From the NCBI GenBank assembly GCA_018831055.1, contig JAHJRE010000071.1:1-33111 (forward strand): a DNA stretch of 33,111 nucleotides, read 5' to 3'. The stretch is from Bacteroidota bacterium (lineage in GTDB: Bacteria > Bacteroidota > Bacteroidia > Bacteroidales > B18-G4). The notes under the pieces were generated by a model. It was not told where the DNA came from. It saw only the letters and a program-made list of their open reading frames with translations, and did not search any database. The position numbers and the translations under genes were made by a program. The stretch's first letter is position 1; every line of letters begins with the position of its first letter. Shown here one piece after another: positions 14,517 to 33,111 of the stretch.

Positions 14517-14537
14517 CTTCGATCTTCGATTATCCTG

Positions 14538-14610
14538 AGCCTCTCAAGGGACTCGAACCCTCGACCTGCTCATTACGAGTGAGCTGCTCTACCGACTGAG
14601 CTAAAGAGGC
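14538..14610 (-). tRNA. tRNA-Thr, anticodon CGT
   Basis: Read on the minus strand, a full cloverleaf is present: 7-bp acceptor stem (GCCTCTT/GAGAGGC with one G-T pair), D arm TAGCTCAGTCGGTAGAGC, anticodon stem GCTCA/TGAGC with loop CTCGTAA, a 5-nt variable region, and T arm closing TTCGAGT. The anticodon CGT reads the Thr codon ACG. The discriminator is T and CCA is not encoded. A TATTTTTG box at 14654-14647, about 40 nt upstream, is a likely promoter. Confidence 0.95.
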
Positions 14611-32145: not shown

Positions 32146-32484
32146 TTATTCTATCCCTTCAATCCGGTCTATATAAACGTTAGTAAGTTTATGTGAATCT
32201 GATACTTTTATTATTTCATCCCAGTTTTTATTAAGGAAACTATACAATTCCTGTATTTTCATGTTTCCTATTTTCAAGTGAATTACTTTTGGTTTATCTT
32301 GAAACAAAACTTTAGTTGAAAAATCGGTATCCTTTGTAATAATGGTAAGATTGTTCTTTATGGCATATTCAAATTTCTCATTATCAGTCATGTTTTCGTT
32401 AATATCAAAAACATGAATAAAAAAATCACTTTTCCATATACTGAAATAGTATGGCAAGTTTGCGTCAATAATGTATTTGGTCAT
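32146..32484 (-). CDS. DUF5615 PIN-like toxin-type protein
   Basis: A 112-aa PIN-like protein of the DUF5615 type: the acidic residue D7 in YIIDANLPYYF, a second acidic pair around ITKDTDFST (about residues 54-62) and a conserved HLKIGNM strand. These are the positions of PIN nuclease metal ligands, but the fourth acidic site is not evident, as usual for the family. It overlaps its DUF433 partner by one base (TAATG), which means translational coupling. Such pairs are assigned to type II toxin-antitoxin-like modules by neighbourhood; activity is not established for this one. Confidence 0.85.
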   Translation of the reverse strand: MTKYIIDANLPYYFSIWKSDFFIHVFDINENMTDNEKFEYAIKNNLTIITKDTDFSTKVLFQDKPKVIHLKIGNMKIQELYSFLNKNWDEIIKVSDSHKLTNVYIDRIEGIE

Positions 32485-32717
32485 TATGCAACAGGTTTAA
32501 TAATAAAGTTTTTATTCATTAAATCCGCTGCGAATTGAAGACAAGCTGTAATATCTTCTTTCTCAAGACCGGGATATTGTTTCAGGATTTCTTCACTGGA
32601 ATCTCCGGCACTCAGGAACTCTAATATCGTGTTAACGGTAATTCTTTTTCCCCTGATAGTAGGTTTACCGTTGCAAATACTATCATCTATAGTTATTCTG
32701 CTTCTATAGTTTTCCAT
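32484..32717 (-). CDS. DUF433 antitoxin-type protein
   Basis: A 77-aa protein: RITIDDSICNGKPTIRGKRITVNTILEFL carries the DUF433 signature (GKPxIrGtRitV), with a small helix-turn-helix-like helical region (SSEEILKQYPGLEKEDITACLQFAADL). It is the upstream partner of the DUF5615 gene, sharing one base at the stop/start, the usual order for this pair. It could repress its own operon, but no operator was recognised upstream (32718-32860 is AT-rich and otherwise unremarkable). Confidence 0.85.
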   Translation of the reverse strand: MENYRSRITIDDSICNGKPTIRGKRITVNTILEFLSAGDSSEEILKQYPGLEKEDITACLQFAADLMNKNFIIKPVA

Positions 32718-32865
32718 TACTATTCAGTTTTATACAAATTTACTAATATTTCCTGCACCTTAAAAAATTCAATAGAAGTTTTCTATTGTCTTGAGATTTA
32801 AAAATTAAAACATTTCATCATTTTAGCATATTTCATTCTTAGGATGAATTACTCCCATTTCGAAG

Positions 32866-32954
32866 TCGGGATGGTGATCCCGATTTTCATCGGGAGAACT
32901 CACGACCTCCACGTCCCGGACGTGGCGTCTCGCCTGAGGCGAGACTACATCCCG
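32866..32954 (-). other. tRNA-Pro(CGG)-like element, copy 1 (intact acceptor stem)
   Basis: Read on the minus strand it has a 7-bp acceptor stem CGGGATG/CATCCCG with C1-G72 and discriminator A, as in bacterial tRNA-Pro, and the linker TA. A perfect hairpin GTCTCGCCTCAGGCGAGAC stands in place of the D arm. The anticodon arm CCACGTCCGGGACGTGG has CGG at the anticodon position but C rather than U before it. Then come a variable region AGGTC and a T stem GTGAG/TCAC whose loop is an inserted hairpin, TCCCGATGAAAATCGGGA, with a GAAA loop. A normal tRNA D loop and T loop (GG, TTCRA) are missing, so this is not a working tRNA. Confidence 0.7.
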
Positions 32955-32956
32955 GA

Positions 32957-33004
32957 GAATGAAAAAGCCCACCATCGTCTCAATACCATGAGGCTTAGGT
33001 GGGC
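32957..33004 (-). terminator. Intrinsic terminator after tRNA-Pro-like copy 2
   Basis: On the minus strand GCCCACC (33004-32998) pairs with GGTGGGC (32973-32967), with an inner CTCA/TGAG pairing, followed by TTTTTCATTC. It begins 4 nt after the discriminator base of copy 2 and so closes that unit as a tRNA gene would be closed. Copy 1 has lost this hairpin: its downstream DNA has only a TTCATCC/GAATGAA stem without a T-tract. Confidence 0.75.
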
Positions 33005-33008
33005 GAAG

Positions 33009-33097
33009 TCGGGATGGTGATCCCGATTTTCATCGGGAGAACTCACGACCTCCACGTCCCGGACGTGGCGTCTCGCCTGAGGCGAGACTACATTCCA
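33009..33097 (-). other. tRNA-Pro(CGG)-like element, copy 2 (decayed acceptor stem)
   Basis: Identical to copy 1 in the D-arm hairpin, the anticodon arm and the T-loop hairpin. Its 5' acceptor strand reads TGGAATG instead of CGGGATG, giving one mismatch and one wobble with CATCCCG. A terminator hairpin follows 4 nt after the 3' end. Identity in the hairpins with changes only in the acceptor strand suggests that the hairpins, not tRNA function, are what is kept or copied. Confidence 0.65.
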
Positions 33098-33111
33098 GAG
33101 AATGAAAAAGC

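Follow-up and report, generated by a model that had tools for sequence, protein, structure and literature searches.

The REP sequences of the REP/RAYT system are GTAG- and CGTC-tagged palindromes of 20-40 bp that are dispersed in spacers and sometimes found inside longer palindromes and genes (PMC3733652). Rickettsia palindromic elements (RPEs) measure 100-150 bp and are inserted in frame into genes (PMC3767692, PMC3733652), and the mitochondrial repetitive hairpin-forming elements (RHEs) have GC clusters and double-hairpin elements as relatives (PMC2800124). The locus described here, in which two short palindromes occupy copies of a tRNA-Pro(CGG) gene, resembles each of these in part. Like REPs, the palindromes are dispersed in spacers, nested in longer palindromes and also present in genes; unlike REPs, they replace target bases, the copy number of palindrome 1 is low, and the tag and a RAYT partner are missing. 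At one locus (L068) palindrome 1 falls within an open frame, as RPEs do, but the present palindromes measure 17-18 bp and are sited in tRNA and riboswitch loops. With RHEs they share the form of short hairpins, the spread in spacers and the occupation of length-variable sites of structured RNA genes, whereas they are bacterial, unrelated in sequence and located in tRNA copies and riboswitches. Because the REP tag and partner and the RPE size do not apply, we place them close to REP, RPE and RHE without counting them as members. The units that carry them also resemble bacterial tRNA pseudogenes formed by tandem duplication, which are likewise decaying copies of a tRNA gene and its terminator; in contrast to ordinary tRNA pseudogenes, loop-replacing palindromes would here cause the decay, and the affected copies come from three or more tRNA types.

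The window, that is, the whole stretch of DNA analysed, is the complete 33,111-nt contig C71 of a draft genome (342 contigs, 4.19 Mb, 96% complete), and at its right end lies a minus-strand tandem array of two units and the tail of a third. A first-pass annotation had proposed two 108-bp repeats with a 143-bp period, a hairpin with a T-run and a further unit's tail at the window edge, all of which were recovered. The direct repeats (32861-32968 and 33004-33111) are 108 nt each, 98% identical and 143 nt apart from start to start. The terminator-like hairpin, GCCCACC...GGTGGGC with its T-run (32962-33004, minus strand, from sequence and fold), stands between the copies, downstream of unit 2 and upstream of unit 1, and the tail at 33105-33111 reads GCTTTTT on the minus strand, the terminator end of a further unit. 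The window spans the entire contig, so the contig end truncates the array. A contig search found the array on no other contig of the assembly. The full unit turned up nowhere else there, and in 59 related genomes only short stretches match the units, nearly all of them in true tRNA-Pro(CGG) genes.

In a genome of the same family (G004) the intact tRNA-Pro(CGG) reads CGGGATGTAG-CGCAGCCCGGTTAGCGC-GCCACGTTCGGGACGTGGAGGTCGTGAGTTC-GAATC-TCACCATCCCGAC. Unit 1, a tRNA-Pro(CGG)-derived cloverleaf covering tRNA positions 1-73 (CGGGATG...CATCCCG-A; 32866-32954, minus strand), as delimited by alignment to this gene and by its isolated fold, reads CGGGATGTAG-TCTCGCCTCAGGCGAGAC-GCCACGTCCGGGACGTGGAGGTCGTGAGTTC-TCCCGATGAAAATCGGGA-TCACCATCCCGAC. 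The three retained segments match at 10/10, 30/31 and 12/12 positions, giving 52 of 53 identical outside the replaced segments. Relative to the G004 gene, 16 nt of the D arm have become the 17-nt palindrome TCTCGCCTCAGGCGAGA (palindrome 1; 32928-32944, minus strand), with the shared last C left out of the count, and the 5 nt GAATC of the T loop and stem have become the 18-nt palindrome TCCCGATGAAAATCGGGA (palindrome 2; 32878-32895, minus strand). The sole change in the retained part, T33C, turns the anticodon arm (CCACGTCCGGGACGTGG, 32909-32925, minus strand; CCACGTTCGGGACGTGG in the intact gene) into a perfect palindrome. Unit 2 (TGGAATG...CATCCCG-A; 33009-33097, minus strand), placed by repeat comparison, is a second such copy, and genome searches for palindromes 1 and 2 locate its D-arm palindrome at 33071-33087 and its T-loop palindrome at 33021-33038, both on the minus strand. 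It carries T1 and A4, and therefore pair 1-72 becomes U-G and pair 4-69 an A-C mismatch. The alignment shows that the units originate from tRNA-Pro and that, set against the same-family gene, 16 and 5 nt have given way to palindromes.

An ancestral location beside tRNA-Thr(CGT), where tRNA-Pro stands in the same-genus genome G001 and the same-family genome G007, was considered. The window is collinear with G001 as far as tRNA-Thr (14537-14610) and differs beyond it, and no counterpart of the G001 protein that neighbours this site was found in the present genome.

Both inserted palindromes are dispersed repeats that also occur without the tRNA, and their multiple dispersed copies above chance (56 versus 8 sites, filled and empty sites, 44 of 45 loci in one phylum) are a REP-like trait. 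For palindrome 2, a search with TCCCGATNNNNATCGGGA at up to two mismatches gave 56 forward sites against 8 for a reversed-pattern control. Filled sites have the form TCTA-(TCCCGATTTTCATCGGGA CAGG)-TTGTGCCTATTGTGG, with several copies between TCTA and TTGTGCCTATTGTGG, and the same genome holds three empty sites, TATTGTGCTCTA-CTGTGCCTATTGTGG and two alike; the filled and empty sites are direct evidence that about 22 bp with palindrome 2 have been gained or lost. A separate group of four TCCCGAC....GTCGGGA palindromes, 39-117 bp apart on contig C111 of this genome (20763-20975), forms a small array of the palindrome 2 family in which one base pair is compensated.

Palindrome 1 has four exact copies, TCTCGCCTNAGGCGAGA, in the genome: two belong to the array, and the two on contig C16 are the tips of C/G-rich hairpins. 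A copy with one mismatch (C43:1782) lies inside a 5'-truncated tRNA-Asp copy (...CATGCCTGTCA-(TCTCACCTCAGGCGAGAC)-GGGTTCTAGTCCCGTCCGGTCCGCA, then a terminator) that is broken and unable to fold as tRNA; an intact tRNA-Asp stands about 300 bp away on the opposite strand. The sequence that follows the terminator of this copy, ATTCTCCGGG (L135, C43, about 1700-1850), is similar to what precedes the tRNA-Pro units. When about 85,000 genomes were scanned, 45 loci were obtained, 44 in Bacteroidota and one in an Acidimicrobiia record, with the phylum taken from the record or, for 'uncultured bacterium' entries, from context; because most loci came from a pattern with AG ahead of the palindrome, this locus set is not unbiased. 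In another Bacteroidales genome (L113, the same genome as L066) a duplicated 5' part of tRNA-fMet, directly before the intact tRNA-fMet gene, has palindrome 1 in place of the D-loop CAGTTG. The FMN riboswitches of three further loci, each in a Bacteroidales genome (L083, L089 and L108, scoring 112-118 bits), contain exact TCTCGCCTNAGGCGAGA in their variable hairpin, and palindrome 1 also stands at the centres of the common repeats GTCATACTGAG...AAGTA and GTCATTGCGAG...GAAGCAATC. It is nevertheless rare and patchy, as only this genome in a 395-genome sample of the phylum has it. At three loci (L075, L079 and L104), in different Chitinophagaceae/Bacteroidota genomes, palindrome 1 occupies one and the same position in a leader whose gene reads as ribosomal protein L11 (MAKEI[ST]GYVKLQ...), with a varying central base; these leader copies may be inherited and functional.

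We consider it probable that the units are tandem duplicates of tRNA-Pro(CGG) and its terminator, now decaying pseudogenes whose loops were replaced by REP-like mobile palindromes. The tRNA gene would have been copied in tandem together with its terminator, and the short palindromes would have replaced the interior of the D arm and part of the T loop, having moved or been copied there from elsewhere, possibly when single strands formed hairpins or templates were switched at hairpin tips, and probably before the 143-bp tandem duplication. The resulting units would be without function. Their cloverleaf outline survives because a hairpin placed in a loop adds to the fold. A tRNA-derived mobile palindrome had been among the roles first suggested for the units; the link to mobile palindromes holds, but the mobile pieces are two short palindromes inside tRNA-Pro copies, which elsewhere occur free of tRNA. 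Besides the tRNA-Pro origin and the dispersal of the palindromes, the missing promoter-like box, the uncompensated differences between the copies, the seeming dispensability of the gene and the enclosing flanks of palindrome 1, all described below, are in favour of this reading. Counting against the pseudogene reading, the copies are 98% identical, palindromes included, and the array structure must thus be recent or maintained. The retention of the anticodon, A73 and, in copy 1, C1-G72 also speaks against decay, as does T33C, which perfects an arm and does not worsen it. Nor did the 96% complete assembly yield an intact tRNA-Pro(CGG), and such a gene may lie beyond the contig end that cuts the array.

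The tRNA-Pro(CGG) gene appears to be one that this family can do without. In the same-family genome G006 (91% complete) a 5' stump was found and no intact gene. CCG codons would be read by tRNA-Pro(UGG), of which the apparent gene in this genome, tRNA-Pro(TGG), stands at the end of contig C149 and is cut by the contig end. G004 has an intact tRNA-Pro(CGG) plus stumps. One stump (L116/L010, G004:C199), CGGGATGTAGC and then GC-rich inverted repeats, sits upstream of the intact gene, between it and a promoter-like region. Here the D arm is disrupted at the position also hit in the array units, independently of them.

A more tentative proposal, which we hold as possible and somewhat doubtful, is that 17-18 bp mobile mini-palindromes of Bacteroidota prefer to replace hairpin tips by a single-strand or template-switch mechanism, and that the array was hit at two arms. 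The tips in question are the D and T loops of tRNAs, the hairpins of FMN riboswitches and the centres of larger repeats. Across 38 distinct loci, the flanks of palindrome 1 form an enclosing hairpin more than re-paired flanks do (p = 0.0006 for mean energy, p = 0.023 for pair count), and a strict test for nesting with abutting arms was suggestive only, without reaching significance (p = 0.07). If true, tip replacement would account for hairpin gain in the structured RNA genes and repeats of Bacteroidota, the empty and filled sites would be available for studying the process, and a dispensable tRNA gene would have a route to decay with its fold kept. It also carries a caution, in that palindrome insertion can produce a cloverleaf shape and high z-scores for folding as by-products.

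An enzyme responsible for moving these palindromes was not identified. The only Y1/RAYT-type transposase gene of this genome (Y1_Tnp, 155 aa; L131, contig C221, about 1500-2400) is followed by a different REP array, some seven 51-bp tandem units with the REP-like palindrome GACCCCGCCGGGGTC and a GGGTAGATG motif. A REP/RAYT origin, suggested by the GTAG before the D-arm palindrome, was rejected: GTAG is native to tRNA-Pro, being present at this site in the intact gene, other copies of palindrome 1 are flanked differently, and the REPs beside the RAYT are of another kind. Neither a constant GTAG nor a constant CGTC tag was found beside the palindromes. A phage origin was likewise discarded, as phage records gave no similar match; among viral contigs, palindrome 1 occurs in one, inside an apparent coding region, and the T-arm combination in none. 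Within an incomplete literature set, a search for bacterial tRNA loops replaced by palindromes brought up no such report.

An alternative that we regard as unlikely treats the array as a structural repeat of DNA or RNA, such as a REP/BIME-like spacer, a terminator or a stabiliser of mRNA ends, in which the hairpin cluster is maintained and the tRNA shape is a relic. The hairpin clusters, the tandem structure, the dispersal of the palindromes in spacers and the REP-type arrays beside the RAYT of this genome are all in keeping with it, yet neither palindrome has a GTAG or RAYT link and the array occurs at one place only.

It is quite unlikely that the units, each with its own terminator, act as a small regulatory RNA or decoy that mimics tRNA-Pro, for instance to bind ProRS, RNase P or the ribosome; the first-pass annotation had offered such a mimic, with ProRS and RNase P as examples, along with a minus-strand tRNA-Pro(CGG)-like cloverleaf. 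The cloverleaf itself is borne out in isolation: a single unit has a predicted minimum-free-energy (MFE) cloverleaf of -48.6 kcal/mol, more stable than the -32.0 of intact tRNA-Pro, and the complete 143-nt unit folds far more stably than its shuffled versions (z -5.05, 0/200 as good). In the 143-nt context, the predicted MFE structure is two nested hairpins and not a cloverleaf. Copy 1 has the CGG anticodon, A73 and C1-G72, elements that bacterial ProRS reads, whereas copy 2 keeps the first two and has U1-G72, a departure from the C1-G72 claimed for both. The mimic reading gains from these retained elements and from the terminator between the units. That terminator also separates the copies, however, and a Bacteroidota-type TAnnTTTG box, present within 80 nt upstream of 22 of the genome's 33 tRNA genes (background, 3.7% of random windows), was found nowhere in the array up to the contig end. 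Both differences between copies weaken acceptor pairing and are uncompensated; drift of this kind, which the first-pass annotation had said would speak against its own proposal, is thus what is seen, on two changes in two copies only. Outside this array the full unit was, moreover, absent from the assembly and from 59 relatives, and palindrome 1 recurs in the broken C43 tRNA copy, which has no tRNA fold to offer.

That the units are divergent working tRNA-Pro(CGG) genes which, with D and T arms extended by hairpins, take the place of the normal gene is very unlikely. The isolated cloverleaf fold and the lack of an intact tRNA-Pro(CGG) in this 96% complete assembly are in its favour. The prediction that the units are not normal tRNAs was nonetheless confirmed: ARAGORN called no tRNA, the Rfam tRNA model RF00005 left the units unmatched even at E 10, and the D-arm GG and the intact 7-nt T loop are missing, both replaced by palindromes. 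The D-T elbow cannot form because the T loop is broken, and T33C alters the anticodon loop. In addition, tRNA-Pro(UGG) is present, and G006 is also without a visible intact CGG gene.

An assembly artefact is highly improbable, for although the genome is a draft of 342 contigs and the array lies on a contig edge, the copies differ at two positions, unit 1 is joined on its left to unique sequence, and other genomes, among them that of the isolate Sediminibacterium goheungense DSM 28323, independently contain palindrome 1. Left of the array, at 32146-32720 on the minus strand, we observed two small ORF-like regions that resemble a toxin-antitoxin-type pair by arrangement only.
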